NCBI GenBank assembly: GCA_021772135.1
Contig: JADYXQ010000320.1
Span: forward strand, 1-52,998
DNA: 52,998 nt
Direction: 5' to 3'
Source of the DNA: Candidatus Obscuribacter sp.
GTDB lineage: Bacteria; Cyanobacteriota; Vampirovibrionia; Obscuribacterales; Obscuribacteraceae
The notes under the pieces were generated by a model. It had not been told where the DNA came from and made no database searches. It saw only the letters and a list, made by a program, of their open reading frames with translations. The position numbers and the translations under genes are program-made. This document shows, in pieces, positions 3,019 to 36,224 of the stretch (positions within the stretch are counted from its first letter, which is position 1; each line of letters opens with the position of its first letter).

Positions 3019-3046
3019 GAAACCTGGATCGATATCGATCCAGGTT
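3019..3046. repeat. Long palindrome, copy 1 of a four-member family
   Basis: Perfect 28-base palindrome with the core CTGGATCGATATCGATCCAG, flanked by an A-rich left arm and a T-rich right side. It lies between two convergent genes (ends at 2956 and 3089), the position expected for a bidirectional terminator. The same 16-base core GGATCGATATCGATCC recurs at 8564, 13792 and 19105. Confidence 0.9.
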
Positions 3047-3088
3047 TTGTCCTGATACCCCAAAAATCTATCTGCACCCTACCCCAAA

Positions 3089-3979
3089 TTAAGGGCCAAA
3101 AATAGCGCAGTCCTTCATCTTTCCACGTAAGCGCGCTATGCCAATTTCAGTCACTTTCGTGTCCCGTAACTCCAGATGTTCCAGCTGGGCCGCTTCCGCC
3201 AGTGAATCAAGGCATTTGTCGGTGATTTGCGTGCCGTTCAAGAAAAGAACTTTTAGAGCAGGCATGTCTTTAACGTATGCCACGCTATCGTCGCCCAGGG
3301 TAGTGTCGTTCACATATAAGGTACTCAAAGTTTTCAGGACAGCAAGAGATTTGATGGCTGCGGCAGATAGCGCCGTGTAAGAAAGGTCCAAGTCTTCAAT
3401 GCTGGCCGATTGTGACAGGGCCTCTGCTCCGTCGTCGGTAATCGTGGCCGGGAGGTGCAGATTTTTTAGTTTGGGCAAAGTGGCCAACGCTTTCATGCTG
3501 CTGTTGGATATTTTGGTGCTTTTAAGAATAAGGCTGGTGAGCGATTTCACCCCTTGCAAAACAGGCAACATCTGGTCGTCAACTGAACTACCGGTGAGCC
3601 AGAGGGTCTCAAGGCATGAACTTTCGTTTAAGTTGATAAAATCTTGAGTGCTCAAAGTGAGGAAATCAAGGCGCAGCTCCCGTAAGGCCGACAATTTCAT
3701 CATAGCGGCTAAAAATGGAGCTGAATACTTTGACGTCGAAAGATCCATGGAGTGTATCTGATTTAAGGCTGCCGCGCTGCCTTCAGCCATTTTTGCGTCG
3801 ACGTCGTGTGACAGTGCCAGGCCAATCATTGATTCCGGAGGCAAATTTAGCTTCGCTTCGCCCGCTGCCTGGCCGACCCAGGTGCGGTTATGCGGGAAAA
3901 CTTGCTTTGATAAATAAAGATTGCCCAGTGTGTGTTGGGCGGGAAAAGTCAGAATCAGCTCTTTAGTCGTCGCTACCAA
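3089..3979 (-). CDS. Leucine-rich-repeat protein
   Basis: 296 residues. From about residue 95 to the C-terminus there are successive leucine-rich repeats of roughly 23-25 residues, of the ribonuclease-inhibitor type, with lines such as LRELRLDFLTLS, LETLWLTGSSV, LTSLILKSTKI, LKNLHLPATI, IEDLDLSYTAL, LSTLYVNDTTL, LKVLFLNGTQI and LEHLELRDTKV. The first 90 residues are not clearly repetitive. There is no obvious signal peptide, so it may be cytosolic. LRR proteins act in protein-protein binding; the partner cannot be told from here. It is transcribed alone, convergent with the gene ending at 2956. Confidence 0.75.
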   Translation of the reverse strand: MVATTKELILTFPAQHTLGNLYLSKQVFPHNRTWVGQAAGEAKLNLPPESMIGLALSHDVDAKMAEGSAAALNQIHSMDLSTSKYSAPFLAAMMKLSALRELRLDFLTLSTQDFINLNESSCLETLWLTGSSVDDQMLPVLQGVKSLTSLILKSTKISNSSMKALATLPKLKNLHLPATITDDGAEALSQSASIEDLDLSYTALSAAAIKSLAVLKTLSTLYVNDTTLGDDSVAYVKDMPALKVLFLNGTQITDKCLDSLAEAAQLEHLELRDTKVTEIGIARLRGKMKDCAIFGP

Positions 3980-4121
3980 GATAAATTCTCCAGTGGATTT
4001 ATGGGAGAAACCGGGGGAGCCATATTGTAAGGCTTAACCGCTCTAACCTATAGTGGTTGTATGGTCAAGTGTTACGGCTGCGCATCGAACCAGCCAAAAC
4101 TTTAAAGAGAAAGTTACAAGA

Positions 4122-4673
4122 ATGTCGCAGTGGAATCGGTACGAAGAAGACAACTCCCGCAGTGGTTATCGCCAGGATGCCACTTATCAAAACGGTATAT
4201 TTGACGACTATGCGATGCCCGGTCGCCAATATGACCGCAGTTACGACCGGAATAATTATGACCGTGGCTACGACCGCGGCAATCTGGCCATGTCGGTCTC
4301 TCTCGGGCCAGTCGATTTGCTTTTAGGTAATGGTAATGCCGGATTTGGATTCAATGGCGGCAGGCGCGATCATCACCATGGCCATAATCAGGTCCAGCAG
4401 TGGGGTCGTCAAACTTACCAAACTCCTGATTACAATTACCGCCGCGGTTACGAAGATTTCGGTGAATCATCTTATAACGTCAACCAGGGCTATCGTCCGC
4501 AACCTAGATTCGATGGTTCTTTCCGCCAGGATATGTTTGATCCGCGCTTCCAGAGACATCATGAGCACGGACAGCGAAACCGGATGAACTGGGACTTGCG
4601 CTTCGACAGCGGCCGTCAATACCGCTCTGAGCAACACTCGCGACCATACATTCAAGAAGATTACAGACGCTAA
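4122..4673 (+). CDS. N-terminal part of an interrupted cysteine peptidase gene (Tyr/Asp/Arg-rich)
   Basis: 183 residues from ATG 4122 (MSQWNRYEED) to TAA 4671-4673. The frame is also open upstream to 4053, but 4122 gives a more natural protein start. Composition is very rich in Tyr, Arg, Asp, Gly and Gln, with short repeats such as YDRSYDRNNYDRGYDRGN, and looks disordered. The same frame continues open after the TAA (EQERYIEPGRRQ...) straight into the peptidase domain of the next entry, with the same composition. The TAA differs from CAA (Gln) by one base, and YRR[Q]EQERY would fit. I therefore read 4122-5507 as one gene with an in-frame stop, either a nonsense mutation, a sequence error or a readthrough site. 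Confidence 0.6.
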   Translation: MSQWNRYEEDNSRSGYRQDATYQNGIFDDYAMPGRQYDRSYDRNNYDRGYDRGNLAMSVSLGPVDLLLGNGNAGFGFNGGRRDHHHGHNQVQQWGRQTYQTPDYNYRRGYEDFGESSYNVNQGYRPQPRFDGSFRQDMFDPRFQRHHEHGQRNRMNWDLRFDSGRQYRSEQHSRPYIQEDYRR

Positions 4674-4781
4674 GAACAAGAGCGGTACATCGAGCCTGGT
4701 CGCCGTCAGATTCCCGAGCGTCAGTATCAAGAAAATTACGACTATGTAGAAGAGAATGTCCAAACTGAGCGCACTCGTGAA

Positions 4782-5507
4782 GTGCAGGCAGATGATCGCC
4801 CTACTCGCACATTGCCGACCAACGCCATGAGTGAGTACGACTGGGCTGTTTACACCAAGCTTTGTGAAACCGCTCAGGGTCTTGTGGGCAAACACACAAC
4901 CGATTACGACAAGAGGCTGCCTTCCGACAGGTTGGGCTGCGTCAAAGCGGTGAGCATGCTTGTAGATCAGGCTTTTGGCTACAACACCAACGACGTTAAC
5001 ACGCGCACTTTCGAAAAAGATTTGCGTGACAAAGGCTTCGCCGAAGTCGCGGTCAGTGACATTAAGCCCGTTGACGTCATTCTCGGCTATCGCGCTGATG
5101 GTGATTATTCTCACTCAGCCTTGTATATGGGCAATGGCAAAATCTTCAATAACGACAGTGACGCAGGCACCATGCAGATTCAGTCGATTGATAAATTCAA
5201 TTCAACTGAATTCAAAAGGTTCGTGATTTTGCGCCACCCACCGAAGGTTCCAGGAGTAACTGGAGCTGAAGGCAAGAACAGTTCTGCCAACAGCACTGTG
5301 GAAAGCGGACAAGTAAACACATCTAGCCAAGAATTTGAATCTGAACCTGCTACTGAACCTGAAATTCAAACTGATGAACGCGCAACTTATGTTGCTCCAC
5401 AAGAACAACGCCGCTCAACAGCAGAGTCAGAGCAAGATTTGAACGTGCCAGATCCTGAACAAGATTTTGAGCAGGCAGTGCCGACCCACTCCAGGGCCAA
5501 GCGCTAA
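4782..5507 (+). CDS. NlpC/CHAP-like cysteine peptidase domain, downstream part of the interrupted gene
   Basis: The open frame runs from 4674, directly after the TAA, to TAA 5505-5507; GTG 4782 is the first start-like codon. Residues LPSDRLGCVKAVSML and GDYSHSALYMGNGKIFNN give a Cys followed about 70 residues later by SHSALYMG, the layout of NlpC/P60 and CHAP papain-like amidases that cut cell-wall peptides. The domain is followed by a roughly 90-residue Glu/Gln/Ser-rich tail. No signal peptide is visible at either possible start. GTG 4782 lacks a ribosome site, which supports this being the second half of the gene starting at 4122 rather than an independent gene. Confidence 0.6.
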   Translation: MQADDRPTRTLPTNAMSEYDWAVYTKLCETAQGLVGKHTTDYDKRLPSDRLGCVKAVSMLVDQAFGYNTNDVNTRTFEKDLRDKGFAEVAVSDIKPVDVILGYRADGDYSHSALYMGNGKIFNNDSDAGTMQIQSIDKFNSTEFKRFVILRHPPKVPGVTGAEGKNSSANSTVESGQVNTSSQEFESEPATEPEIQTDERATYVAPQEQRRSTAESEQDLNVPDPEQDFEQAVPTHSRAKR

Positions 5508-5545
5508 GCCGATCTTCTGGAGCCAAAGGCTTTCACAGGCAATCA

Positions 5546-7102
5546 CTATTTAGCGGTAGCGGGCTTGAGCGTGTCTTCGATGCGCTTAAAAATGGGGCCG
5601 GCGTTTCGTACTTTTTGCCCTGCCGGAATCATGTCGAAGAATCCATCCGGCCGGTCGCTATCGCCGAAGACTTCCAGGTCGTCGTCGTGTCCTAACTGCC
5701 ACCATAAATCTGCTGCCAGCTTCGGTGCGAAAGGATAAATTTGGAAAGCCATCCGCCTGAGCATTTCAACCGAGGTATAGAGCACTTCTTGCCCCTCTTT
5801 GACTTTGCCTTCTTTGAAAAGCGCCCAGGGCTTTTCGTCGGCAAAATATTTGTTGGTCAAATCAACGAGAGCGAGTATGGAGTCGATTGCTTTGGCATAT
5901 TCCAGTTTGACCATGTGCGCGTTGTAGACAACGTGCAATTCGTTGGCATTTTCGCGCAGTAGATTTTCTGGTTTGGCTTCCGGCAATTGGCTGTCGCAGT
6001 TGGTTTCAATCAACTTCAAAGTACGGCTCAATAAATTGCCCATGCCGTTTGCCAGTGCGGAGTTACATGTGCTGATAAACTCCGCCCTGGAGAAATCACC
6101 GTCTTGATCCATGGGCGTGCGACTGAATAAATAGAAGCGCACAGCATCAGCACCATACTCTTCCACAAGCTTATTTGGATCAATCACATTACCCAGCGAC
6201 TTGCTTATTTTCTGACCTTCTACAGTAATGAAACCGTGAGCGAAGATCTGCTTGGGTAGCGGAATGCCGGCGGCTAGCAAAAACGCTGTCCAGTAAATGC
6301 TGTGAAATTTGGTGATGTCTTTACCAATCAAATGCAGGTCGGCAGGCCAGTATTTTTGAAACTGTTCGTCGTCGGTAAGGTAACCGCATCCGGTGATGTA
6401 ATTGCTTAATGCATCCATCCAGACATAAATTACCTGGTCGTCATCTTCAGGCACCGGAATGCCCCAGGTAAGCGATTTTTTCGAGCGCGAGACACTGAAG
6501 TCACCGAGTTCCGGATCGTTCAATTGATTGAGCACTTCTTTGCGCCGGCCATCTGGTTGTACGGCCGTCGGATTGGCCTCCAACCAGGCTTGTATTTGTG
6601 GTTTGTATTTTGTCAGTTTGAAAAAGTAATTTTCTTCTGCCACTTTCTTTGGTGGCTTCAGGTGATTGACGCAATTGCCGCTGGCGTCCAGATCTCGCTC
6701 TCTGACAAAGTCTTCGCAACCTTCGCAATAAAGTGCTGAGTAAGTTGATTTGTAAATGTCCCCTTGATCGCGCAACTTGCGGAACAAACTTTGCACCACT
6801 TTTTCATGATCGATCTCGGTGGTGCGAATGAATCTATCGTAGGAAAGATTGAGATTATTCCAACTCTCTTTAAACATCTCTGAAATTTCGTCACAGAAAG
6901 CTTGCGGTGATTTACCCGCTTGCTCAGCCGATCTCTGGATTTTGATACCGTGCTCGTCCACACCAGTGAGAAACCGGACGTCATAAGCCCGCATGCGGTA
7001 ATAACGCGCAATTACGTCGGCTGCGATTTTCTCGTAAGCATGGCCGATGTGCGGAGCGGCATTGACGTAATCGATGGCTGTTGTGACGTAGAACTTATTC
7101 AT
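5546..7102 (-). CDS. metG: Methionine-tRNA ligase
   Basis: Class I aminoacyl-tRNA synthetase that charges tRNA-Met. The 518-residue protein has the HIGH motif at residues 18-21 (PHIGHAY), a zinc knuckle CEGC...CVNH near residues 125-145 (three Cys and one His), and the KMSKS-type motif KISKSLGN near residue 300. The anticodon-binding helices follow. It ends without the C-terminal tRNA-binding (EMAP-like) domain present in some MetG proteins, so it is the short form. It starts at ATG 7102. It is convergent with the peptidase gene ending at 5507 and divergent from coaBC. Confidence 0.96.
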   Translation of the reverse strand: MNKFYVTTAIDYVNAAPHIGHAYEKIAADVIARYYRMRAYDVRFLTGVDEHGIKIQRSAEQAGKSPQAFCDEISEMFKESWNNLNLSYDRFIRTTEIDHEKVVQSLFRKLRDQGDIYKSTYSALYCEGCEDFVRERDLDASGNCVNHLKPPKKVAEENYFFKLTKYKPQIQAWLEANPTAVQPDGRRKEVLNQLNDPELGDFSVSRSKKSLTWGIPVPEDDDQVIYVWMDALSNYITGCGYLTDDEQFQKYWPADLHLIGKDITKFHSIYWTAFLLAAGIPLPKQIFAHGFITVEGQKISKSLGNVIDPNKLVEEYGADAVRFYLFSRTPMDQDGDFSRAEFISTCNSALANGMGNLLSRTLKLIETNCDSQLPEAKPENLLRENANELHVVYNAHMVKLEYAKAIDSILALVDLTNKYFADEKPWALFKEGKVKEGQEVLYTSVEMLRRMAFQIYPFAPKLAADLWWQLGHDDDLEVFGDSDRPDGFFDMIPAGQKVRNAGPIFKRIEDTLKPATAK

Positions 7103-7144
7103 CGAGTTGAACGTATCCTTATTTGGAATGATTTAGATAGTAAT

Positions 7145-7172
7145 TTGATTTACAATACCAGTAGACCATAAT
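7145..7172 (+). promoter_or_regulatory. Probable promoter of coaBC
   Basis: TTGATT at 7145-7150 and CATAAT at 7167-7172 are 16 bases apart, a sigma-70-like pair in the 170-base divergent gap between metG and coaBC. Transcription would begin near 7179, leaving a leader of about 95 bases. Confidence 0.4.
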
Positions 7173-7272
7173 AGTACAGAGTGAAAGAATGTTGGTTCTT
7201 GAGCCGATTCGTTTCGAGCGTCAGCTCTTAAGAGGATTTGTTCGTGGCGGTTCGTAACAGAGGTAAAGTGCA

Positions 7273-8550
7273 ATGACCATGAAGAAGTCTTCCAAAAAGA
7301 GAGATACCAAATTCGGGTTTGACTCCTTCAATCCACTTGAGAACAAAACGGTGCTGTTGGGCATTAGCGGCGGTATCGCTGCTTATAAGGCGTGCGACAT
7401 TGCCTCACAGTTGAGACACGCGGGAGCCGATGTTCACGCTGTTCTGACACCAAATGCCAAAGAGTTTATTACTCCATTATCGCTGACGACCATCACCCGC
7501 AATCAGGCCCATTGCGAACAGTACGGTCCGGCTGCCGATTGGCGCCCAGAGCATATTGATCTGGCGAAAAAGGCCGATCTGATTTTGATCGCTCCGGCTA
7601 CAGCCGACGTCATTGCTAAGCTTGCCAATGGGATTTGCGACGATTTGCTCACCACCATGGTGCTGGCATCGCCGGCCAAAGTGATGATTGCGCCAGCTAT
7701 GAATCCAGTGATGCTGCAACATCCGGCCACTCAACACAACCTGGCAATTTTAGAAAATCGTTACCGCTACGATGTCATTCCTCCCGAATACGGCGAAGTG
7801 GCGTGCGGTGATTGGGGCACCGGAAAAATGGCAGCGGTAGAGACCATCATTGCTGCTGTAGTAGCCAGGCTGCTGGCCCATTTGACCCTTTCTACCAAGC
7901 GCCTGCTAGTTACCGCTGGTGGCACACGTGAACCTATCGATCCGGTGCGCTTCATCGGTAACCGCTCTTCAGGCAAAATGGGAATAGCCATGGCCGACGC
8001 CGCTCACGGACGTGGGGCCGACGTAACTCTTGTTTCAACTGTAGACGTTGAGAGAGCTTATCCTGTGATTGTCGTCGAGACTGCTCAAGAGATGCAAGAT
8101 TCGGTAGAGTCTGAATTCGACAGTTGCGACGCCCTGGTAATGACTGCTGCCGTAGCCGATTTCCGGCCGCTGACTACCTCCAATCACAAAATTAAAAAGA
8201 CCGATTCAGAAGATCTGGTTTTAGAATTGACGAAAAATCCGGACATCATCGACTTGCTGGGCCGGGTCAAACGCAAAGATCAGGTGATCATTGGCTTTGC
8301 CGCTGAATCTGAAGCATTACTTTCGAATGCCACGCAGAAATTGAAACGCAAGAATCTCGACGTTATCGTCGGTAACGATATTTCAGTGCCAGACATCGGT
8401 TTTGGCTCAGACGATAATGCCGTAATTATTCTCAATTCCGATGGCACGAAAGAGAGCCTTCCGCGTATGCCAAAAAGAGCAATTGCTGAACATCTTTGCG
8501 ACTTGTTGGCGGAACGGTTTCAGGTGATAGAAAAGACACCGGTGCACTGA
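7273..8550 (+). CDS. coaBC: Bifunctional phosphopantothenoylcysteine decarboxylase / phosphopantothenate-cysteine ligase
   Basis: Catalyses two steps of coenzyme A synthesis: ligation of cysteine to 4'-phosphopantothenate (CoaB) and decarboxylation to 4'-phosphopantetheine (CoaC). The 425-residue protein has the flavoprotein CoaC domain first: [15 protein letters not shown], the His in [12 protein letters not shown], the PAMNPVM loop and the [10 protein letters not shown] flap with its Cys. The CoaB domain follows with [28 protein letters not shown] and a lysine-rich KIKK site. The start at 7273 (ATGACCATGAAG) is preceded by AGAGGTAAAG. The first 20 residues are a basic extension. A long palindrome follows 14 bases after the stop. 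Confidence 0.96.
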
Positions 8551-8563
8551 TTGGTGGGTTTTT

Positions 8564-8597
8564 TTGAAACCTGGATCGATATCGATCCAGGTTTCAA
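8564..8597. repeat. Long palindrome, copy 2 of the family
   Basis: Perfect 34-base palindrome with the same 20-base centre CTGGATCGATATCGATCCAG as copy 1, longer in both arms. It begins 14 bases after the coaBC stop codon and is preceded by a T-run, consistent with a terminator. Confidence 0.9.
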
Positions 8598-8770
8598 TTT
8601 GGGCGTCTCATGCCCCACATCTGGCTCGACAATAAAGCATCAATCAGGCGCAAGTTAAAGAAAATGGCGCTAAACAAGCATTCACACATAGACCATTCAA
8701 AGCTATACATAGGCACTGAGTGATATACTCCCTTGTCTGAATATCAGGTTCGGAGGCCAGTAAAAACTTT

Positions 8771-9115
8771 ATGGGTAGAGCCAATCAATCTCAAGACGAT
8801 TTGAGACAAAAAGCCGGTGGCGGCTTTGGATCCCTTCTCACGGGACTGGTGCTGGGCACGCTGGGCGGCGTTACTTTAGCGCTTTTGACAGCACCGAAGT
8901 CTGGTAGTGAAACAATCAATGTAATTCAAAGAAGCGCTAAAGATGTGCCTGAGCGCCTTGGTGAAGTTGTGGACGACTCTCTTGATCTCTACGCTTCCCT
9001 TCTCAACTATTGTCAATTAAGCGTTGAAGAGCAAGGAATGCGGTTCAAAAGAGCTCTCGCTGCCGGCAAACTGGCTGCTGCCAAAAAACGTGAAGAAATC
9101 GAAATCGGCGGATAA
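8771..9115 (+). CDS. YtxH-domain protein, small membrane-anchored
   Basis: 114 residues. A glycine-rich membrane segment lies at about residues 19-42 (GFGSLLTGLVLGTLGGVTLA), followed by LLTAPKSGSET, the typical YtxH sequence in which a hydrophobic helix is followed by an APKSG motif. The rest is amphipathic helix ending in Lys/Glu. YtxH proteins are small envelope proteins linked to general stress in Bacillus; their molecular role is unknown. GGAGG at 8753-8757 lies 13 bases before ATG 8771. It is the first of three small genes of the same type (8771-9997). Confidence 0.75.
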   Translation: MGRANQSQDDLRQKAGGGFGSLLTGLVLGTLGGVTLALLTAPKSGSETINVIQRSAKDVPERLGEVVDDSLDLYASLLNYCQLSVEEQGMRFKRALAAGKLAAAKKREEIEIGG

Positions 9116-9202
9116 CACGCGTCAATTTCAAAGTTCATAGGTAAAAGTTTATTAGTAGTCGACATTTCCAACAGTTTTCAACCTAGATAAAAGGGGTTTT
9201 TT

Positions 9203-9637
9203 GTGGAGCACGTTACGTCTTGGATGGACATCTTAGTGGCCGTGGCCCTTATTTTCCTAGCCGTGTCACTGATGGCGGTGAGCCTGCCATTGATGTCGAT
9301 GGTCAAACAGTCTGAGCGTACACTTTCCGCTTTAGAACGTCTGTTTGGCACCATTGATCGTGAATTAGGACCAACCCTCAAGCAAGTTGATACGTTGCTC
9401 GGCACCGTGCTTGAGCTTAAGACCAGCGCGGAGAAACGCATAACTGAAGTCGGTTCGAAAGTAGGCGATGTTACAGGTGGCTTGACCAAAATTACAGGTG
9501 AAGCCAAGAAGCATTCATCAGTATTTGGAGCCGGCCTTTTCGCCGGTATTCGCTCTTATATCGAACGGCCAGATAAGGCTCGTCAGGAATCAGCAAAAGA
9601 TAGTGAAGCAATGAGACTGTCCGAAGTGGGCAAATAA
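9203..9637 (+). CDS. DUF948-type membrane protein (YtxG-like)
   Basis: 144 residues from GTG 9203, with AAAAGGGG at 9189-9196 as ribosome site. One membrane helix lies at about residues 7-32 (VAVALIFLAVSLMAVSLPLM), followed by a long helical region (LSALERLFGTIDRELGPTLK) with the periodicity of DUF948 proteins. In Bacillus, ytxG (DUF948) and ytxH are neighbours and co-transcribed. Here the DUF948 gene sits between two YtxH genes, which supports the assignment and suggests the products work together at the membrane. Confidence 0.7.
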   Translation: MEHVTSWMDILVAVALIFLAVSLMAVSLPLMSMVKQSERTLSALERLFGTIDRELGPTLKQVDTLLGTVLELKTSAEKRITEVGSKVGDVTGGLTKITGEAKKHSSVFGAGLFAGIRSYIERPDKARQESAKDSEAMRLSEVGK

Positions 9638-9664
9638 TATTCAGTAAGGATAGAGGTGAAACAT

Positions 9665-9997
9665 ATGAGCAGATTTCTAGAAGGGTTGGTCGTTGGCGGA
9701 GTGATGGGCTACATTGTTGGAATTCTTTCGGCACCTAAGTCTGGCGCTGAACTGAGACAACAAATTGCCGACAATTCTGAAGACTTGTACAAACAAGCAT
9801 CTGACTCTCTTGTTGATATTCGTGAGAAAACCGGCACCGTCATCAACGAAGCTCAAACGAAGGGCACCGAGGTGTTTAAGAAGGCTTCCGATTCCGTTGT
9901 GGGCACCAAAGAGCAAATTGCGCAGAAGCTCCAGGAGCTGGCTGGGCAGAGCACTAAAGTAATGGTTGATGATGTGGAAAGCGCCACTTCGGGCTAG
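9665..9997 (+). CDS. YtxH-domain protein, second copy
   Basis: 110 residues from ATG 9665. GAGGTG at 9653-9658 is well placed as the ribosome site, so the GTG at 9656 is not used. The membrane segment is VVGGVMGYIVGILSAPKSGAE (residues about 8-24), containing the same APKSG motif as the first copy. The remaining 80 residues are a long amphipathic helix with repeating SD/SV and KEQ units. It lies 27 bases after the DUF948 gene and forms one unit with it. Function is not known beyond membrane association. Confidence 0.75.
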   Translation: MSRFLEGLVVGGVMGYIVGILSAPKSGAELRQQIADNSEDLYKQASDSLVDIREKTGTVINEAQTKGTEVFKKASDSVVGTKEQIAQKLQELAGQSTKVMVDDVESATSG

Positions 9998-10043
9998 TAC
10001 GTTTTGAGCCGGGCCACTACCCGCTCAGTTAGAGATTGATCGA

Positions 10044-10808
10044 TTGAATAAGAAGAATTCCAGCCCCAAACGGCTGCTGAGGCTTAACCGTGCTTTAGCA
10101 GCTACTGGCCTATGTTCTCGCCGAAAGGCCGATGTGCTCATTACCGAAGGGCAAGTGCGGCTCAATGGTGAGGTGGTGACCGACTTTAATCGCCTGGTTG
10201 ATCTGGGTCGGGATAAGTTGGCCGTGAATGGAGTTCCTCTGCACGGTAAAAGACATGAATACGTTGTCATGAATAAGCCCAAAGGTGTGGTGGTTACTTG
10301 CGATGATGATCGCGGTCGCCGCACTGTGATTGATTTGTTGCCGGAAGAGCTGACGCATCTCAAGCCCGTGGGTCGTTTAGATTCAGACTCAGAGGGCCTT
10401 TTGCTGCTTACCAATGATGGCGACCTGGCGCGTTTCTTGACGCATCCATCTCACGAAGTGCCAAAGCTTTACAGAGTTAACGTGGAAGGCGACATCTCCA
10501 AAAACGCCATAACCGCCCTGCGGCAAGGTGTCAGGTTGTCAGAAGGAATGACCGAACCTGCTTTCGTGCGTAAAATTTCTGCAAATACTCGCTATTCACA
10601 GCTGGAAATAGAATTGACGGAAGGCAAAAACCGGCAAATCAGGCGGATGTTGGCTCAGGTTGGCTACAGAGTGACGCGTTTGGTCAGGGTTGCCATTGGT
10701 GGGTTACAATTAAGTCAACTGGAGTCTGGATCGTGGCGGCATCTGAACAATCAGGAATTAGCTTTCCTGCGGGCAGCCGAGAGCGGTCAAAGTCAAAACG
10801 TAGATTAG
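10044..10808 (+). CDS. rluB: rRNA pseudouridine synthase, RsuA/RluB family
   Basis: 254 residues. An N-terminal S4 RNA-binding domain (LNRALAATGLCSRRKADVLI) is followed by the catalytic domain with GRLDSDSEGLLLLTNDG; Asp113 in GRLD is the catalytic residue of this family. The C-terminal part (EGKNRQIRRMLAQVGY) is the other signature of RsuA/RluB/RluE/RluF enzymes, which convert uridine to pseudouridine in rRNA. RluB (23S) is the commonest form outside enterobacteria, but the substrate cannot be fixed from sequence alone. The start is TTG 10044 with AGAGAT upstream at 10030-10035; no better start fits the S4 domain. Confidence 0.88.
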   Translation: MNKKNSSPKRLLRLNRALAATGLCSRRKADVLITEGQVRLNGEVVTDFNRLVDLGRDKLAVNGVPLHGKRHEYVVMNKPKGVVVTCDDDRGRRTVIDLLPEELTHLKPVGRLDSDSEGLLLLTNDGDLARFLTHPSHEVPKLYRVNVEGDISKNAITALRQGVRLSEGMTEPAFVRKISANTRYSQLEIELTEGKNRQIRRMLAQVGYRVTRLVRVAIGGLQLSQLESGSWRHLNNQELAFLRAAESGQSQNVD

Positions 10809-10882
10809 CAGGCTGATTGCCGGCATCAAAAGCAACACAAACACCAAAATAGTACACTTCGCGCATACCTGGATACGGCTAA

Positions 10883-11941: not shown

Positions 11942-12000
11942 AGCAATCAACGTAATTGCAGTTGAGAGCCAAGCGTTAGCGACTCTGGAGAAAGTGAGAA

Positions 12001-13443
12001 ATGCGTAACCCTAAAATAGGGGTGGTTTCTTTGGGCTGTCCCAAAAATGCCACTGACACGGAAGTGATGCTCGGCCTTCTGAACGAAGCCGGATTCGAAG
12101 TCACATTCGACAACGACGATGCCGATATGTGCCTGGTCAACACTTGCTCTTTCATTGGTGACGCCCGCAAAGAATCGGTGCGCACACTGGTGGAATTAGC
12201 CGACCAGGGCAAAGAACTCATCATCGCAGGTTGTCTTGCACAGCACTTCAGAGAAGAATTGCTCGCTGAAATTCCAGAGGCCCGCGCGGTTGTTGGCACC
12301 GGTGACATTACTAAAATTGTTGACGTGATCAAAGCCGTGGCTCGCGACTCTTCACTGAGAGTGGTGGAAGTCAGCGATGTGCCTAACAATTATGATGACG
12401 AGGTCTTGCCGCGGATGGCCATCGGTGTAGGCGCTTCAGCCTATCTGAAAATCGCCGAAGGCTGCGATCACGCTTGTACATTCTGTATCATCCCGATTCT
12501 ACGCGGCAAGTTCCGCTCTCGCACTATCGAATCGTTAGTTAAAGAAGCACGCATTCTGGTGAAAGGCGGAGTCAAGGAAATTATTCTGGTATCACAAGAT
12601 TCCAGCTATTACGGCCTCGATATTTACAGCAAGATGGCTCTGCCAGAGCTTCTTGAAGCGTTACACGAAATCGAAGATCTTGATTGGATACGCATCATGT
12701 ATTGCTATCCCACCGAAACCAATCGCGCATTGCTTGAAACCATTGCGCGCTTGCCCAAGGTAGTGAAGTATGTGGATATTCCGCTGCAACACTCTCACCC
12801 TGCCGTTCTTTCGGCTATGGCGAGACCGAGAAATCCAGAGAAAGTAATGGACTTGATTCGCGAAGTCTTGCCCGAAGTAAAAATTCGCTCTACTTTCATT
12901 GTCGGATTTCCTGGCGAAACTGACGAACAATTCGAGCATCTTGTGCAATTTATCGAGAAATACCGCTTTGACAGATTAGGCGTATTTACTTATTCCAAGC
13001 AGACTGAAGTGCCTTCTGGCAACATGGAAAATCAGATTACCGAAAAGGTGAAAAAAGCGAGACGCAATCGTATTATGCGTCTGCAGCACGACATTGCTTT
13101 TGCCTCCAACAAAGCCATGATCGGGCAAGTGATACCAGTGTTGATTGAGAGCTACGACGAAAGCAAAAATCTCTATATTGGCCGCAGTCCTTGGGATGCT
13201 CCCGGTATCGATAATCAAGTTTATGTCCGTCAATCAGAAGAGGTTCCGGTCTATATGGCCGAAGTAAATATGGTTCTGATCGAAGAGGCCAAACCTTACG
13301 ATTTAATTGGTGTTGCCTGTAGTGACACTGAAAATGCAACCGCCGGCCAGTCTGATACTGAGTCAGGCAGTCAACCTGATACTAAAGCCAAGGTGCAAGG
13401 CGGCGCGAAAGAATTGGTCACGGCAGTGTCAATTTCGAAATAG
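12001..13443 (+). CDS. rimO: Ribosomal protein S12 methylthiotransferase RimO
   Basis: Radical-SAM enzyme that adds a methylthio group to an Asp of ribosomal protein S12. The N-terminal domain starts VVSLGCPKNATDTEVMLG and has CLVNTCSF and AGCLAQ, supplying the three Cys of the auxiliary cluster. The radical-SAM motif is GCDHACTFC with Cys155, Cys159 and Cys162. The TRAM domain follows. At 480 residues it is about 35-40 longer than usual; the extra is a Thr/Asp/Gln-rich tail after residue 440. The start ATG 12001 (MRNPKIGVVSLGC) is fixed by the conserved N-terminus, with GGAGAAAGTGAGAA upstream. Confidence 0.95.
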   Translation: MRNPKIGVVSLGCPKNATDTEVMLGLLNEAGFEVTFDNDDADMCLVNTCSFIGDARKESVRTLVELADQGKELIIAGCLAQHFREELLAEIPEARAVVGTGDITKIVDVIKAVARDSSLRVVEVSDVPNNYDDEVLPRMAIGVGASAYLKIAEGCDHACTFCIIPILRGKFRSRTIESLVKEARILVKGGVKEIILVSQDSSYYGLDIYSKMALPELLEALHEIEDLDWIRIMYCYPTETNRALLETIARLPKVVKYVDIPLQHSHPAVLSAMARPRNPEKVMDLIREVLPEVKIRSTFIVGFPGETDEQFEHLVQFIEKYRFDRLGVFTYSKQTEVPSGNMENQITEKVKKARRNRIMRLQHDIAFASNKAMIGQVIPVLIESYDESKNLYIGRSPWDAPGIDNQVYVRQSEEVPVYMAEVNMVLIEEAKPYDLIGVACSDTENATAGQSDTESGSQPDTKAKVQGGAKELVTAVSISK

Positions 13444-13624
13444 GTCCTTGAGCATTTGAGCATAGCTCGAAGCAATTGGTTCGATGAGCGATTGGTTCAA
13501 TACCCGATTGTATCGATGAGCGACAAAATCGATGACCCACGTTCTACTGCTGCTGAAAGGCAAGCATTTAAACTAGCCGTCGCAGCAGATACAGTTTTGG
13601 AACTAGCTATATGGAGGTGCAGAT

Positions 13625-13792
13625 ATGCTCGAACCCTTATCTGCTCATTTGTTAACTTTTGAGCGCGGAAAATCAGAAGGCACAGTGTTGTGTGAGCGGG
13701 CGCAAGAGATACGTAAGAAATTTGCATGCATAGTTGAGTTTTGTGGCGCTGGTGATGCTTCCGCGACGCGCCGGCATTTGATGATTGGGTAA
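13625..13792 (+). CDS. Small protein of 55 residues, unknown function
   Basis: ATG 13625 to TAA 13790-13792, with an excellent ribosome site (GGAGGTG at 13612-13618, 6 bases before the start). The protein begins MLEPLSAHLLTFERGKSEG, carries three Cys (residues 23, 35, 40) and ends ATRRHLMIG. No family is recognised. The stop codon is the first base pair of palindrome copy 3, so transcription would end right after it. The strong ribosome site and tight terminator make it more likely real than chance. It overlaps a longer frame (13456-13662) that has no ribosome site. Confidence 0.5.
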   Translation: MLEPLSAHLLTFERGKSEGTVLCERAQEIRKKFACIVEFCGAGDASATRRHLMIG

Positions 13793-13831
13793 AACAGGAA
13801 CCCGGATCGATATCGATCCGGGTTCCTGTTT
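13792..13831. repeat. Long palindrome, copy 3 of the family (compensated variant)
   Basis: Perfect 40-base palindrome, the longest of the four. The core GGATCGATATCGATCC is unchanged, but the next pair is C:G instead of T:A on both sides, so the change is compensated and pairing is kept. The outer arms (AAACAGGAAC / GTTCCTGTTT) are unrelated to those of the other copies. It directly follows the 55-codon gene and is followed by a pyrimidine-rich stretch. Confidence 0.9.
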
Positions 13832-13893
13832 CTTATCTATCGGCCTGTGGTTTACTTCTTCAAAGGCACTAAATATGGTGTCAGAAGTCAGCT

Positions 13894-13909
13894 TTGACTA
13901 TATAGTCAA
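13894..13909. promoter_or_regulatory. 16-base palindrome, candidate operator
   Basis: TTGACTATATAGTCAA is a perfect 16-base palindrome about 90 bases before the start of the DNA-binding protein gene at 14000. Its left half could also serve as a -35 element. A self-regulatory operator is a guess from position and symmetry only. Confidence 0.35.
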
Positions 13910-13999
13910 GAATCAACGATTGCCGAATAATATTTTCCTTTTCAATTGAACTTTCGACTCCGATTTTACGTTTTACATAACATGACGGGAGGGTTTGTC

Positions 14000-15055
14000 A
14001 TGACTATGTCAGATGCTGAAATCGCGCTGGAGATTAAAATTAAAAAGGCATATCGGGCCTTCAATCGCAGAGTAAAAACGGATGAGGACGCTTTGGATGT
14101 AATTTATAAAAAGCTGAAAAAGTTGCACCGCATTGGATGCCAGTGCGGTTGCACAGACGTTGTAAGAAAAAAAGGTGCTCGGTCATTCGTCTGCTCGGAT
14201 TGTAAAGAAGAAACACACTTTACTGTTGGCACTGTTTACGAGGGCAAAGTGCGAATTAGAGCGATGCTTGGTGCCATTCACTTAAGCGAGCGAAATTTGC
14301 CTGTGACTTCTTCAAAATTAAGTAAGTTATTCAAGATTGGTTATGGAACGGCACACAATATTCTTTTAAATCAAGGTATTTTGATCAACAAGTCGATGCC
14401 CAGCAGTGCGCTCGCGCTAACAGGTAAAGGATTGCAATCAATTATCTTTCGAAGAAGCAGTGAAACACCAATCAGAAGACATCCAGTCGCGGAGCAAGAA
14501 GAAGTGGAGAAAGAATTGTTCGAAACTACAGCCTCCACAAATGAAAGCTCGAAAGGTTCAAACAAGGATACGGATTCAACCAACGAACTCGAGCTCAATC
14601 TCACAGATGATCAGAAGCGAGTTCTCAAAGCTTTGTCTGAAACTTCACAATCGGTTGATGACCTTTGTATAATTACCGAGCTACCAGCAGGGGCCGTAAG
14701 CAGCGCTCTAGTATTTTTGCACCTGGATAACTTAGTTGACGAATTGCCTGGTGGACGTTACACCCGCAAGGCACCAGTGAAACAGTCGTCAATGGCCAGT
14801 CGGTTTGCGCAGAATCTCGAAGCTCTAAACATTTCGTTGAACGCTTTTATAGCTTTCATCGAATTGACTTCTAAAGGCGTATCGCGAAAATGCCTGCAAC
14901 TGTATCTATCTCAATTTTGGTATCACTTGGACAAAACTTTTTGGCAGAAAGGTGCACTTTCGCTTTTGTACCTCAACAATCCGTCGCCGAGCCCAATGGC
15001 GGTGCGAAATTATGTATCGCCAAATCTCTTAAGGCTACCGGCATTTTCTCTGTGA
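14000..15055 (+). CDS. Transposase-derived zinc-ribbon protein with DprA-like winged helix
   Basis: 351 residues from ATG 14000; GGGAGGG at 13985-13991 is the ribosome site. Residues 45-110 resemble the N-terminal zinc ribbon of IS1595-type transposases: Cys47, 49, 51, 65 and 68, then HFTVGTVYEGKVRIRAMLGAIHLSE. Residues about 200-258 resemble the winged helix at the end of DprA (LKALSETSQSVDDLCIITEL, LVDELPGGRYTRK). Residues about 290-315 (SKGVSRKCLQLYLSQFWYHL) resemble the stretch near the end of IS1595 transposases. No DDE catalytic core is present. I infer a domesticated DNA-binding protein, possibly a regulator. No inverted repeats or target duplications were seen around it. The domain likenesses are recalled, not searched. 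Confidence 0.6.
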   Translation: MTMSDAEIALEIKIKKAYRAFNRRVKTDEDALDVIYKKLKKLHRIGCQCGCTDVVRKKGARSFVCSDCKEETHFTVGTVYEGKVRIRAMLGAIHLSERNLPVTSSKLSKLFKIGYGTAHNILLNQGILINKSMPSSALALTGKGLQSIIFRRSSETPIRRHPVAEQEEVEKELFETTASTNESSKGSNKDTDSTNELELNLTDDQKRVLKALSETSQSVDDLCIITELPAGAVSSALVFLHLDNLVDELPGGRYTRKAPVKQSSMASRFAQNLEALNISLNAFIAFIELTSKGVSRKCLQLYLSQFWYHLDKTFWQKGALSLLYLNNPSPSPMAVRNYVSPNLLRLPAFSL

Positions 15056-15070
15056 GTTAAATAGCTTTGA

Positions 15071-15763
15071 CTAAATCACAGACTTAGCCGATTCCAGCGC
15101 GCGGCTTAGATGTTCGCGAGCAATCTTGAAAAGATTGTCAGCCATGGCGAGGTGGTCATAATCATAGTTTTGGCAGAAGTATTGCAGTTCTTCCAGGCCG
15201 TCGGCAGCCTGGGCGATTGAATGGCGCATCCATTGTATAGCTGGTTTCAGAGTGAGAGGTGGCGGATCGCTTGTGAATTGTTCACTGGCCCGGCGCAGAG
15301 TTTGCTCAATTTCCTCTACATATAGTGAAAATTCTTCCAGCAGCTGGTCATCATAAATATCTTGCGACAGGGCGCCGAGTCGTTGTTTGTATTTGGACAG
15401 AATTGATTCGATTGAACGACGCAAGGGCAAAAAAACCTGCTTCAGATAACGCTCTCTTGCTTTTTCTTCGTCGAGCGAATCTTGCACATGAGTTGGCATG
15501 CGCATTTGCGTACGCGGACGGCTGCGAATTACGACTGAATCGTAATGGGCGCGCTTGTCCGTGTCCATCAAGGTCTCATAGGCCTCGTTAATGGACATCA
15601 TGTGTTCGGTCTCGGTCACAACCTGTGTATCGGGCTTTTTGCTTAAGGACAAGTCAGGATGGACATTTTTAACCAGATTGCGATAGGCCCGCTTTATTTC
15701 AGCCGCGCTCACATCAGGCGCTAGACCAAGTATCTCGTAGTGGTTAGTTTTTCTCAGGGCCAT
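15071..15763 (-). CDS. J-domain protein
   Basis: 230 residues. The first 75 are a J domain (HYEILGLAPDVSAAEIKRAY, then the HPD tripeptide in VKNVHPDLS, then INEAYETLMDTDKRAHYD). The remaining 150 residues are helical and not recognised; there is no Gly/Phe region or zinc-finger domain, so this is not a full DnaJ but a specialised co-chaperone that would recruit DnaK through HPD. It is convergent with the transposase-derived gene (16 bases apart) and divergent from nrdR. A similar single J-domain gene lies at 19204-20013. Confidence 0.85.
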   Translation of the reverse strand: MALRKTNHYEILGLAPDVSAAEIKRAYRNLVKNVHPDLSLSKKPDTQVVTETEHMMSINEAYETLMDTDKRAHYDSVVIRSRPRTQMRMPTHVQDSLDEEKARERYLKQVFLPLRRSIESILSKYKQRLGALSQDIYDDQLLEEFSLYVEEIEQTLRRASEQFTSDPPPLTLKPAIQWMRHSIAQAADGLEELQYFCQNYDYDHLAMADNLFKIAREHLSRALESAKSVI

Positions 15764-15782
15764 AAAGTAATTATGCCCGAAC

Positions 15783-15796
15783 TGCTTATATAAGCA
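15783..15796. promoter_or_regulatory. 14-base palindrome between J-domain gene and nrdR
   Basis: TGCTTATATAAGCA is a perfect palindrome in the 66-base divergent gap. It could be an operator for either gene. It is not a clear match to the published NrdR-box consensus, although its AT-rich core is similar. Confidence 0.3.
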
Positions 15797-15817
15797 AATT
15801 TACTATGGAGGCGCGTT

Positions 15818-15823
15818 TATAAT
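15818..15823 (+). promoter_or_regulatory. Consensus -10 element just before nrdR
   Basis: TATAAT ends 6 bases before the nrdR ATG at 15830. If used, transcription would start at or next to the start codon and give a leaderless message. No good -35 is seen at the normal distance (15795-15800 is CAAATT). Confidence 0.3.
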
Positions 15824-15829
15824 TGACTG

Positions 15830-16366
15830 ATGTTCTGTCCATTTTGTAACCACCGCGAAAGCAGAGTGCTTGAATCACGTTTGACGACGGAGAATTCGGT
15901 CAGGCGGCGACGTGAGTGTGAAGGCTGTGGTAAACGCTTTACTACTTACGAAAAGCTCGAGACGGTGCAGTTTTTAGTCGTTAAGCGTTCTGGCATTCGT
16001 GAACCTTATACAAGAGATAAGCTCAGGGCCGGTATCAGTCGCGCTTGTTCCAAAACCACTGTGACCGCTGAACAAATTGATGACCTGGTTGATTCGGTGG
16101 AGAGTGAGCTGTTGGCTTCGGGCCGTCGCGAAGTGCCGGCTTCGCTGCTTGGTGAGCTTGGTTTGCGATTGCTGAGCGGGCTTGACCAGGTCGCCTATGT
16201 AAGGTTCGCTTCGGTCTATCGCCAATTTCGTTCGATAGAAGATTTCATTGCTGAGCTTAATTTGCTCCGCAACAGCCAGATTAAGGGCAATCAGCTACTC
16301 GAATGTGAAACTCCAGTGGCCGCCGCATCCGCCACCGCCGGTGGTGCCAAGAGCCAAGAAGTCTAG
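15830..16366 (+). CDS. nrdR: Transcriptional repressor NrdR
   Basis: Zinc-ribbon/ATP-cone repressor of ribonucleotide reductase genes, sensing ATP/dATP. It starts MFCPFCNHRESRVLESRL; zinc ligands are Cys3, Cys6, Cys30 and Cys33. The ATP-cone follows from about residue 48 (LVVKRSGIREPYTRDKLRAG). At 178 residues it is about 20-25 longer than usual because of an Ala/Ser-rich tail. The start is fixed by the conserved MxCPxC. GGAGG at 15807-15811 is 18 bases upstream, too far for a normal ribosome site. Confidence 0.95.
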   Translation: MFCPFCNHRESRVLESRLTTENSVRRRRECEGCGKRFTTYEKLETVQFLVVKRSGIREPYTRDKLRAGISRACSKTTVTAEQIDDLVDSVESELLASGRREVPASLLGELGLRLLSGLDQVAYVRFASVYRQFRSIEDFIAELNLLRNSQIKGNQLLECETPVAAASATAGGAKSQEV

Positions 16367-16463
16367 GCAGCTTGGTAACTGGGCTTGTTTGCGGCGAAGA
16401 TGAAAGATCTCCAATCTGGCTTAACGCTTGTTAGCCGAAGCCCCACGGTGGCAGGTGGTGGTG

Positions 16464-16491
16464 TTACAATCGCAGACCGCTTGTCTAGAAT
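16464..16491 (+). promoter_or_regulatory. Probable promoter of rplS-rbgA-rnhB
   Basis: TTACAA at 16464-16469 and TAGAAT at 16486-16491 are 16 bases apart. Transcription would begin near 16498 and leave a leader of about 20 bases before rplS. The gap after nrdR (150 bases) is otherwise empty. Confidence 0.45.
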
Positions 16492-16516
16492 ATCTTGAAG
16501 AACCAATTAGTGAGCC

Positions 16517-16996
16517 ATGAATAGCATTATTAAAGAGATCGAAGCCCCCCTCCTCAAGACCAACTTGCCAAAGTTTGACGTCGGGGACACTGTCAAAGTT
16601 TTCGTTAAAATCAAAGAGGGCGGCAAAGAGCGCACTCAAGGTTACGAAGGCGTTGTAATTAAGCACACCGGTCACGGAGTCGGCGAAACCTTCACCGTAC
16701 GCCGCGTTTTCCAGGGTATCGGCATCGAGAGAGTTTTCCTCGTACACAGCCCCCGCGTAGAAAAAATCACTGTTCTACGTCGCGGTGACGTCCGTCGCGC
16801 CAAGCTCTATTACTTGAGGCAACGTACTGGCAAGGCTACACGTATCAAAGAGAAGCTTGGCGGCAAGAAAATTACCGCTAATATCAGTGCCAATGCTCCA
16901 GCTGCAACGCCTGCCGCCGCACCTGAAAAATCGGCTGCTACTGCTAATGCCACATCTGCTCCATCCGCTGAAGCCGCTGCTCCAGCCGAAAGCTAG
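16517..16996 (+). CDS. rplS: 50S ribosomal protein L19 with a long Ala-rich tail
   Basis: L19 lies at the 30S-50S interface. Residues 1-117 match the family: [89 protein letters not shown]. Usual L19 ends here, at about 115-125 residues. This one has about 40 more, made almost only of Ala, Pro, Thr, Ser and Glu, probably disordered. Followed by rbgA and rnhB in the order known from Bacillus. Confidence 0.96.
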
Positions 16997-17014
16997 ATTG
17001 ATTTTAGAAGTTGC

Positions 17015-18067
17015 GTGAGCACTAAAAAGACTTCGTCCAGATCAAGCAAAGCGCCAACAGGCAAGTTTGCTGCCGGACAATCGTCTGCACGAAAGAACAC
17101 TAACAAAGGCTCTGATGCCATTGCCAAAGCCGCTCAATCGGCCCGAACTGCGGGTGCTGGGCGGCTTCCGGCTAAGTATGCAAGCAGTGCCGGCAGTGCA
17201 CCAGGCGCTGCTAAGGCCGTTCGTAACAAGCCGAAACCAGCCAATACTCCTTTCCAGCGGTTGACAGAGATCGTCAAGTGGGTGGATCTGGTAATTGAAG
17301 TGCTGGACGGCCGTCTTCCTGAGACCACCCGCCATCCCTCATCGGAAGAGATTTTTGGCAATAAGCCTCGAGTGCTAATTTACTCGAAAGCCGATTTGGC
17401 CGATTCGGCCAAACTTCGCGCTTACGTCAAGTTGGCTGGCGAGAGACCTCAGAGCGGACCGCCAGAAAAGCTCTTGATGTTAGATTTAAAGTCCATGGCC
17501 CACAAAAATACCTTTATTGAAGCCGCACTGGCGGTTACCGCTGAAAAACGAGCCGCGCTTGCAAAGAAGGGCCTATTGGAGCGACCCATGCGCGCCTGCG
17601 TAGTGGGTATACCCAACGTGGGCAAGTCGTCTTTGATCAATTGGTTTGTCGGACGTAAAAAAGCAAAAACCGGCGACTCGCCTGGAGTTACCAGAGGAAC
17701 CCAGTGGATCCGTGTGCATCCACAATTGGAAATGCTGGACACTCCGGGAATTTTGCCAGCCAATTTATTTACTGCAGAAGACAGGCAAAGATTAGCGCTG
17801 CTCAACCTGCTTCCGGCTGATGGCTATGACAATGTGGAAATAGCTAAATTCGGTTTGATGTTAATGAAAAAGTACTACGCCGATAGGCTTGAGGTATATC
17901 TAGCGGGGCTATCGGCCATCGAAGATGGGCTTGACTACATTGCCGAGAAGAAGCACTATTTAGGTAATGGCGGCAGACTAGATCACTATCGAGCGGCCAC
18001 CATTTTTCTGCGCGATCTGCGTGCTGGAAAACTTGGCGAACTTACCTTCGATAAACTCAGTCTGTAA
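17015..18067 (+). CDS. rbgA: Ribosome biogenesis GTPase RbgA (YlqF)
   Basis: Circularly permuted GTPase needed for late 50S subunit assembly. Motif order shows the permutation: G4-like YSKADLAD near residue 125 comes before G1 GIPNVGKS at residues 198-205, followed by TGDSPGVTRGTQW (G2) and LDTPG (G3). The C-terminal helical RNA-binding domain follows. The first 75 residues are a Lys/Ser/Ala-rich extension absent from the 280-residue Bacillus protein. It starts at GTG 17015, 18 bases after rplS. The downstream rnhB start at 18084 is 16 bases after its stop. Confidence 0.9.
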   Translation: MSTKKTSSRSSKAPTGKFAAGQSSARKNTNKGSDAIAKAAQSARTAGAGRLPAKYASSAGSAPGAAKAVRNKPKPANTPFQRLTEIVKWVDLVIEVLDGRLPETTRHPSSEEIFGNKPRVLIYSKADLADSAKLRAYVKLAGERPQSGPPEKLLMLDLKSMAHKNTFIEAALAVTAEKRAALAKKGLLERPMRACVVGIPNVGKSSLINWFVGRKKAKTGDSPGVTRGTQWIRVHPQLEMLDTPGILPANLFTAEDRQRLALLNLLPADGYDNVEIAKFGLMLMKKYYADRLEVYLAGLSAIEDGLDYIAEKKHYLGNGGRLDHYRAATIFLRDLRAGKLGELTFDKLSL

Positions 18068-18083
18068 TAATTGCGGGGCAGGA

Positions 18084-18941
18084 ATGGCAAAAGTAGAAGC
18101 TCCATCAAAGCCACCATTGCATAAGCTTCTTGCTTTCGATACTCGAATTTTAAATAAAGCGCAAAAGTCGAATCAGGCTCTTGTGGGAAAAACTGGCCAA
18201 GCTGCCAACAAAAATTTGAGCAGTCGCCTTCTTGCCATGCATGATCATCAATCGCAATTATTCAAAGGTTCATCTTCAGGCATCATCGGTGTTGATGAAG
18301 TGGGCCGCGGCTGTCTATCGGGTCCGGTAGTGGCTGCAGCAGTGATGCTACCGCAAATCGATAAAAAGTCTAAATTAGCGGAAGAATTGGCCGAGCTCGA
18401 TGATTCAAAAGCATTAAAACAAGAGAGGCGCGAGGAGCTGGCGGCGTTGCTGCGAGCCACTTGTCACTATGCAGTGGGCGAAGCTTCACCTGAAGAAATC
18501 GATGAGATCAATATTTTGCAAGCCAGTTTGCTGGCAATGCGACGCGCACTGGACAACCTTTTCATTCAAATATCTTTTGGGCGCGAGCAATTGCTTCTGC
18601 TGGTTGATGGAAATCAAAGAATCAAAGAAATAGATCTGGAGCAGATTACTGTGATTCAGGGTGACAGCCATTCAGCGTCAATTGCGGCCGCATCAGTAAT
18701 CGCGAAAGTATATCGGGATTCATTCATGAGCAACCTGGCTGAAACCTACCCTCAATATAACTGGCACACTAACAAAGGTTATGGTTCAAAACTGCATCGT
18801 CAAGCCATTGCGGTGCACGGAGTGACTGAGTGGCATCGTCTCAGTTTCGGACCGTGTAAAGACCCGCAAAGCGGTTTAAATGACGAACTTGATCTGGAAG
18901 ACGAAGTTCTTGAAAGCGACCTGGAACTCAGCGCTAACTAA
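18084..18941 (+). CDS. rnhB: Ribonuclease HII
   Basis: Removes RNA from RNA-DNA hybrids, including single ribonucleotides in DNA. The 285-residue protein has the RNase HII signature GVDEVGRGCLSGPVVAAAV with catalytic Asp71 and Glu72, the third acidic residue Asp175 in LLVDGNQ, and GDSHSASIAAASVIAKVYRD near residue 195. ATG 18084 is chosen because GGGGCAGGA precedes it and the frame before it overlaps rbgA; the frame is open back to 18021. The first 65 residues before the signature are an extension. Last gene of the rplS operon. Confidence 0.94.
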   Translation: MAKVEAPSKPPLHKLLAFDTRILNKAQKSNQALVGKTGQAANKNLSSRLLAMHDHQSQLFKGSSSGIIGVDEVGRGCLSGPVVAAAVMLPQIDKKSKLAEELAELDDSKALKQERREELAALLRATCHYAVGEASPEEIDEINILQASLLAMRRALDNLFIQISFGREQLLLLVDGNQRIKEIDLEQITVIQGDSHSASIAAASVIAKVYRDSFMSNLAETYPQYNWHTNKGYGSKLHRQAIAVHGVTEWHRLSFGPCKDPQSGLNDELDLEDEVLESDLELSAN

Positions 18942-18974
18942 AACGCTTCCGTGTTTGAGTCTGGCGCAGATTAT

Positions 18975-19011
18975 GCGAGAAAACGGTACAAATTCGGTAC
19001 AGTTTTCTCGC
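18975..19011 (+). terminator. Hairpin after rnhB
   Basis: GCGAGAAAAC at 18975-18984 pairs perfectly with GTTTTCTCGC at 19002-19011. The 17-base loop holds GGTACA twice. There is no U-run afterwards, so it is a weak terminator candidate; palindrome copy 4 follows about 100 bases later. The rest of 18942-19203 shows nothing recognisable. Confidence 0.3.
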
Positions 19012-19104
19012 TGAAAAACAGTGCTTTAGGGTTGTAATTGAACTTTTAAATTGAAGCTCTGCTTGGTTTTGGCGTGTCTAAGTTTGGTCGGGTACTGTCG
19101 AAAA

Positions 19105-19134
19105 AAAACCTGGATCGATATCGATCCAGGTTTT
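19105..19134. repeat. Long palindrome, copy 4 of the family
   Basis: Perfect 30-base palindrome with the same centre CTGGATCGATATCGATCCAG, preceded by a run of A and ending in TTTT, so it can act as a hairpin-plus-U terminator in both directions. It lies between convergent rnhB (end 18941) and the J-domain gene (end 19204). Confidence 0.9.
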
Positions 19135-36194: not shown

Positions 36195-36224
36195 AGAACA
36201 GGAAGGCTCCAGCCTTCCTGTTCT
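36195..36224 (+). terminator. Terminator hairpin after the 71-residue gene
   Basis: AGAACAGGAAGGCT at 36195-36208 pairs perfectly with AGCCTTCCTGTTCT at 36211-36224 with a 2-base loop, followed by a mixed T-rich tail. A 14-base-pair stem, unlike the GGATCGATATCGATCC family. The rest of the gap to dnaE shows no clear element. Confidence 0.6.

Follow-up and report, generated by a model that had tools for sequence, protein, structure and literature searches.

Why do four long perfect palindromes with the same 16-base core lie roughly 5 kb apart in one part of the 52,998-nucleotide stretch of Candidatus Obscuribacter sp. DNA analysed here (the window)? Judging from sequence comparison, we give an even chance to the reading that they form the local recognition-site set of a protein encoded beside the third palindrome, whose gene belongs to a family that often has a palindrome upstream. 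The palindromes, described in an initial annotation, are present far above chance: exact copies of the core lie at 3026, 8573, 13804 and 19112 (0.07 expected; four copies reached in 0/100 shuffles), and the window has no fifth, in line with the initial annotation, a result that holds with three mismatches allowed. Successive centres are separated by 5547, 5231 and 5308 bp, in agreement with the earlier 5.5, 5.2 and 5.3 kb, and the longest perfect palindrome in the window after these four measures 16 bp. Palindromes 2, 3 and 4 have the coordinates given before; palindrome 1 had been placed one base off, at 3019-3046.

3020-3047, no strand: palindrome 1, 28 bp, perfect, across which the open reading frame (ORF) 2234-2956 (+) and the leucine-rich-repeat protein ORF 3089-3979 (-) face each other convergently
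8564-8597, no strand: palindrome 2, 34 bp, perfect, beginning 13 bp past the stop of the CoaBC-like gene 7273-8550
13792-13831, no strand: palindrome 3, 40 bp, perfect, the 'master' copy, preceding family gene 14000-15055
19105-19134, no strand: palindrome 4, 30 bp, perfect, between the convergent RNase HII gene 18021-18941 (+) and DnaJ-domain ORF 19204-20013 (-)

All four had been assigned to gene ends. This description fits sites 1 and 4, which lie between convergent genes, and site 2, which follows a stop codon; at site 3 the first base of the palindrome is the last stop-codon base of a possible small ORF, yet the palindrome also lies 114 bp ahead of a promoter-like element that belongs to the following gene, a feature absent from the initial annotation.

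13625-13792, + strand: possible 55-codon ORF with GGAGG upstream, from sequence only
13946-13971, + strand: promoter-like element TTGAAC-N17-CGT, before gene 14000-15055
14000-15055, + strand: family gene, with likely start ATG 14000 after GGGAGGG, 351 amino acids (PF17782, alignment, structure model and homologues)

This gene belongs to a family that has a promoter-like element in common and is associated with palindromes, the core of which differs between many paralogues of the window's genus. We sampled 48 family genes, consisting of 38 loci from the genus (one in pieces and one without the winged helix, with most short split matches left out) and 10 of the 11 matches of G011, a genome of another genus. 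TGAAC-N17-CGT stands between palindrome and gene in 41/48 family genes versus 9/1367 control ORFs, and a further form with a spacing of 16 occurs in 3/48; we take this element to resemble ECF sigma factor promoters. With one contig-edge gene dropped, an upstream palindrome scoring at least 14 was found for 23/47 family genes versus 14/1328 control ORFs, and one scoring at least 20 for 17/47 versus 5/1328. A covariance model built from 11 hairpins and searched in six genomes gave 38 strand-counted matches at E<=1 (150 of 3275 candidates scored), and some matches fall just upstream of several paralogues of ORF 13946-15055, for example at G004:C60, G003:C191, G000:C332 and G002:C60. In G011, upstream stems reach 32 bp with no mismatch, their arms varying around AACCGATATCGGTT (8/10 genes) or AACCGTTAACGGTT (2/10). 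When one best-gene locus was taken from each further genome, 11/24 (G011 included) had an upstream palindrome scoring at least 10 with the centre CG-WTAW-CG or TGATATCA, and the rest had no such palindrome.

The window protein has a zinc-ribbon-like N-terminus (CxC..CxxC), a helical part, a DprA-type winged helix and a conserved C-terminal motif, and its structure model reaches a mean pLDDT of 90.3. Across a 31-member alignment, four Cys in a zinc-ribbon pattern are invariant (the invariant positions being C47, C49, R61, C65, C68, R152, K297, D311 and W315), and 30/31 members carry the DprA-type winged helix. PF17782 alone passes the Pfam cut-off in the window protein, which does not qualify for the DprA core domain (PF02481), and Pfam and NCBIfam, the libraries scanned (PHROGs and PADLOC were not), contained no family beyond the winged helix. 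The solved folds listed by the fold search are winged-helix proteins aligned on the winged helix, the rest of the protein being barely probed. Pfam gave no tyrosine-transposase match up to E 10 in the window protein or its orthologue in the sister genome G003, no transposase domain is among the families listed for the 31 members (25 of 52), and the family alignment has no invariant Tyr or HxH; the window protein has no ParB family match. A weak IS1595-type zinc-ribbon match is present in 2/31 members (best E 0.0085), and the Pfam matches listed include no DDE catalytic domain, a result to which the fold search adds no proof of absence. The C-terminal motif GVSRKxLQLYL presumably resembles IS1595 proteins. 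We abandoned the idea of a DDE-core transposase, the IS1595 link consisting of that weak zinc-ribbon match and the presumed motif resemblance. Relatives of about 280-330 residues also occur, such as G001:C93 (L242 9566-10444) and similar ones in G002, G004 and G005, whose matches skip the winged-helix middle.

The family is concentrated in the bacterial family of the window's organism. Searches with the 31-member alignment matched 50/50 of its genomes at E<=0.001, weak matches possibly being DprA itself, and at E<=1e-15 matched 41/50 versus 1/239 other genomes of the class (at most seven candidates scored per genome); genomes of the window's genus each have 8-18 protein matches, pieces included. 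Among 5.8 billion proteins, a single query returned 6 matches and the alignment 18 (about 8,000 candidates scored), namely 5 family members and 13 proteins with the DprA core domain, the latter matching over 16-28% of the query. Plasmids gave no match to the family. No gene family recurs beside most of the family genes, and the neighbours that do recur mainly reflect orthologous synteny.

The proteins diverge fast, copies of the core cluster near their gene within the genus, and sites occupy matching places between species. The window protein is 54% identical to its G003 orthologue, compared with 92-96% for the neighbours compared. Over nine pairs between the window's genome (G000; 5,918,230 bases, 333 contigs) and G003, one of them without a matching neighbour, family proteins are 54-68% identical versus a neighbours' median of 91.5% (32 comparisons). 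The window gene is missing at the orthologous place in G001, G002 and G004, which together with G003 and G005 make up the five other genomes of the genus (the G005 contig stops short). A 65-protein tree places the window's gene in a clade that has GATNGATATCNATC in common; half-site style tracks one clade, and the centre does not track the protein tree.

To measure locality, we counted extra copies of each gene's 18-base core (up to two mismatches) within 20 kb, excluding the master and the 19/38 genus genes without a usable core. There were 29 such copies, at 11/19 genes; when cores were permuted between loci within each genome, the mean was 9.5, and 29 was reached in 1/20,000 shuffles. Ten stretches hold 54 sites, masters included, 34 of which lie outside ORFs, in what makes up 11% of the sequence; among the remainder are short intragenic cores, and two of these are found in three species. 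One solo array is positionally conserved across four species, where it comprises 4, 3, 2 and 5 palindromes, spaced by 42-43 bases in most cases. A pattern covering both G011 cores occurs at 20 places in that genome, comprising the 10 upstream sites and 10 solo copies, 7 of which lie outside mechanical ORFs of at least 80 amino acids. At G011:C9:207869, 244597 and 280213, the upstream palindrome of gene C9b is accompanied by two solos of its extended core, about 36 kb to either side and nearly evenly spaced. The match of C9b itself carries a flagged TAA; read from the match start, its first stop is at the very end.

The sister genome G003 aligns collinearly with the window's left part at 78-84% DNA identity, and a relaxed pattern finds six sites in it, all on the single collinear contig, four orthologous to palindromes 1-4 and two beyond the window's left reach. 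The counterpart of palindrome 2 is a hairpin with arm mismatches, and that of palindrome 4 is located at the contig end. The pair that is C:G in the window is G:C at two G003 sites, C:G at one and unpaired at three. Paired changes in the arms, which the initial annotation had noted, recur across the 11 related hairpins: two-sided changes fill 12 cells, a count as high in 0/500 shuffles and biased towards pairing because the sites were found with a palindromic pattern. One gene of this stretch points to the Obscuribacter group as the probable origin of the window, judging from the names of its relatives:

12001-13443: RimO, sharing 83% identity with its counterpart in 'Candidatus Obscuribacter sp.' and resembling that of other metagenome-assembled genomes of the Melainabacteria group

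Copy number bears on two further expectations of that annotation. It had anticipated many copies of the core across the genome and relatives; the copies are in fact few and, in the window's genus, local. The exact core has five copies in G000, four in the window and one on contig C192, also at an ORF end, and G000 is the only one of 99 genomes searched that contains it; if up to three mismatches are allowed, a 22-base pattern is matched at 10 places in G000. Searching relatives for the exact core alone would thus hide the finding, and it was the relaxed pattern and the covariance model that revealed the pattern. In public genomes the exact core occurs in at least 116 stretches of highly diverse organisms, compared with about 60 by simple chance for 257 Gb, and this gives no sign of an element in common. 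A methylase target, the other suggestion, is not supported because the genome has only five copies and the cores of paralogues in the genus differ. The companion idea, that the core is kept as if bound by a protein, fits the candidate DNA-binding gene beside site 3 and its homologues, which often have long palindromes.

Because four cores surround a fast-evolving gene, and a palindrome and promoter-like element stand beside related genes, it is likely that the palindromes serve these proteins as DNA recognition sites. The genes likely constitute a multi-copy family of predicted DNA-binding proteins, with a layout like that of RAYT/REP or ParB/parS without the protein domain of either. A dimer is predicted to bind the dyad core, with the centre CG-WTAW-CG in most cases, and the predicted target of the window protein is GGATCGATATCGATCC, which it would prefer over unrelated palindromes. 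Binding at the master site, ahead of the promoter-like element, could regulate the protein's own gene, and solo sites bound over about 10-40 kb may, by analogy with ParB at parS, tie together or mark that part of the chromosome. Two processes could preserve the matching outer arms, namely selection for a hairpin or cruciform, or template-switch copying between arms; rapid joint change of protein and sites would be the consequence.

Several observations weigh against recognition of the palindromes by the neighbouring protein. Arms of 20-32 bp exceed what a dimer footprint needs, and structure searches of two libraries returned nothing at E<=0.001. The pairing is not universal, since 15/47 family genes have no upstream palindrome even at a score of 9, and such genes include 10 of a 12-gene G000/G003 clade. 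Cores are not always private: AACCGATATCGG plus TT is common to 8/10 G011 genes and AACCGTTAACGGTT to two, and two G004 genes have the same 18-base core. In G011, the 40 kb around each of the 10 genes (20 kb to either side) contain no further copy. The TTAA centre is scattered on the protein tree, with 7 changes against a shuffled mean of 6.8 (as low in 500/500 shuffles). The in-gene cores exceed most of the surrounding sequence in conservation, with 23/996 and 25/932 windows equally conserved, and this conservation may in part be protein constraint.

An account compatible with protein recognition, which we consider possible though short of an even chance, is that the matched arms result from mutation, with template switching at a quasi-palindrome copying one arm onto the other and only the core under selection. 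The orthologous master palindromes at G004:C36, G002:C29 and G001:C125 agree with it, as they keep the apex TTTTACCGATATCGGTAAAA with different yet fully paired basal arms, and the process is known in E. coli (PMC7202029). Three of five G003 sites, however, retain a mismatch near the apex, which indicates that arm correction is incomplete, and the account leaves the palindromes' place beside the gene family unexplained.

It is unlikely, in our estimate, that the protein mobilises short palindromes in the manner of RAYT/REP, with the solo copies being non-autonomous insertions in gene ends near their source. Such mobility would account for the dispersal and the evolutionary speed, and the combination of a fast-evolving protein with palindrome-gene pairing matches RAYT as portrayed in PMC2817692. 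Sites 1 and 2 have no palindrome in the orthologous gaps of G001, G002, G004 and G005, nor does site 4 in the gaps of G002 and G004 (in G001 and G005 the contigs end before it); the gaps without a palindrome are about 100-220 bp shorter (24-31 versus 132 bp at site 1 and 39 versus 262 bp at site 4, the site 2 length being an estimate as the next gene's start is uncertain there). Yet the matches listed contain no transposase domain save the weak zinc ribbon, family genes and some solo sites keep orthologous places between species, copies are few, plasmids give no match, and the flanks of the four window sites have little in common (2/48 comparisons at <=2 of 100 shuffles).

Ordinary bidirectional intrinsic terminators, with a sequence common by descent or gene conversion, are quite improbable as a general account, even though solos stand at gene ends (two of them convergent), several have A before and T after the stem (some with 3-5 T) and the terminator role proposed earlier suits solo copies better than upstream ones, given that 3/4 window palindromes fail a simple terminator scan and one passes, only 4/28 upstream palindromes are immediately followed by at least three T (some within their own outer arm; 0/9 in G011) and 24/28 lack a T-run, most other strong hairpins in the same stretches are unrelated to the core, and the cores cluster near their gene, some inside ORFs.

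Some related layouts were also observed. One other TTGAAC-N17-CGT lies in the window at 36272-36297, after a 30 bp hairpin (36195-36224) and upstream of ORF 36361-39828, presumably dnaE; this is the family-gene layout at an unrelated gene. At G004:C36:224245 and G002:C29:9236 an extra TTGAACTTTTT box lies beyond the master palindrome and points away from the gene, so that the palindrome is flanked by two divergent boxes. A second set of long hairpins of similar sequence, up to 52 bp, in G004 (C60, C36, C9) and G001:C51 (L246, L248, L258, L173, L181 and neighbours) has CTGTCATATTTTC or CAGTCAGATTTTC arms and an unrelated core.

If the neighbouring proteins do recognise these palindromes, the paralogues with readable candidate sites offer natural data on DNA recognition changing in step with the protein. 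The finding also bears on the maintenance or origin of perfect palindromes 40-64 bp long, and offers a testable function for proteins with no Pfam or NCBIfam family beyond the winged helix. A broader picture, which we find rather unlikely, is that Obscuribacter-type bacteria have up to about two dozen rapidly evolving predicted DNA-binding proteins per genome, many marking their own chromosome stretch by palindromic sites, as a bacterial counterpart of a centromere-like conflict or addressing system whose proteins and sites evolve jointly. Palindromes paired with a protein other than tyrosine transposases or ParB are, to our knowledge, hardly known, and the literature searched (titles and abstract starts in one library) contained no description of such a palindrome-protein system.

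Several known systems offer partial parallels. Bidirectional intrinsic terminators likewise form hairpins at convergent gene ends; here, in contrast, the core is linked to a nearby gene, sites form local clusters and upstream copies mostly lack a T-run. IS1595-type transposases are similar in the weak zinc-ribbon match of two members and differ in that no DDE domain is among the Pfam matches listed and a DprA-type winged helix lies mid-protein here; unlike DprA, the window protein matches PF17782 only. ParB-parS also groups several near-identical palindromic sites in one chromosomal region, close to the binding protein's gene (PMC7022226), as seen in the window's genus and not in G011, but the present proteins have no ParB domain and many paralogues per genome, and the core is distinct from parS of B. 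subtilis (TGTTNCACGTGAAACA). RAYT/REP likewise ties extragenic palindromes to a single fast-evolving gene; according to PMC2817692, rayt evolves faster than its neighbours and is flanked by two REPs, which usually number more than 100 per genome, compared with five exact cores and no tyrosine-transposase domain found here. As for flanking and co-evolution, an upstream palindrome is common in the present family, and its half-site follows one clade while its centre does not follow the tree.
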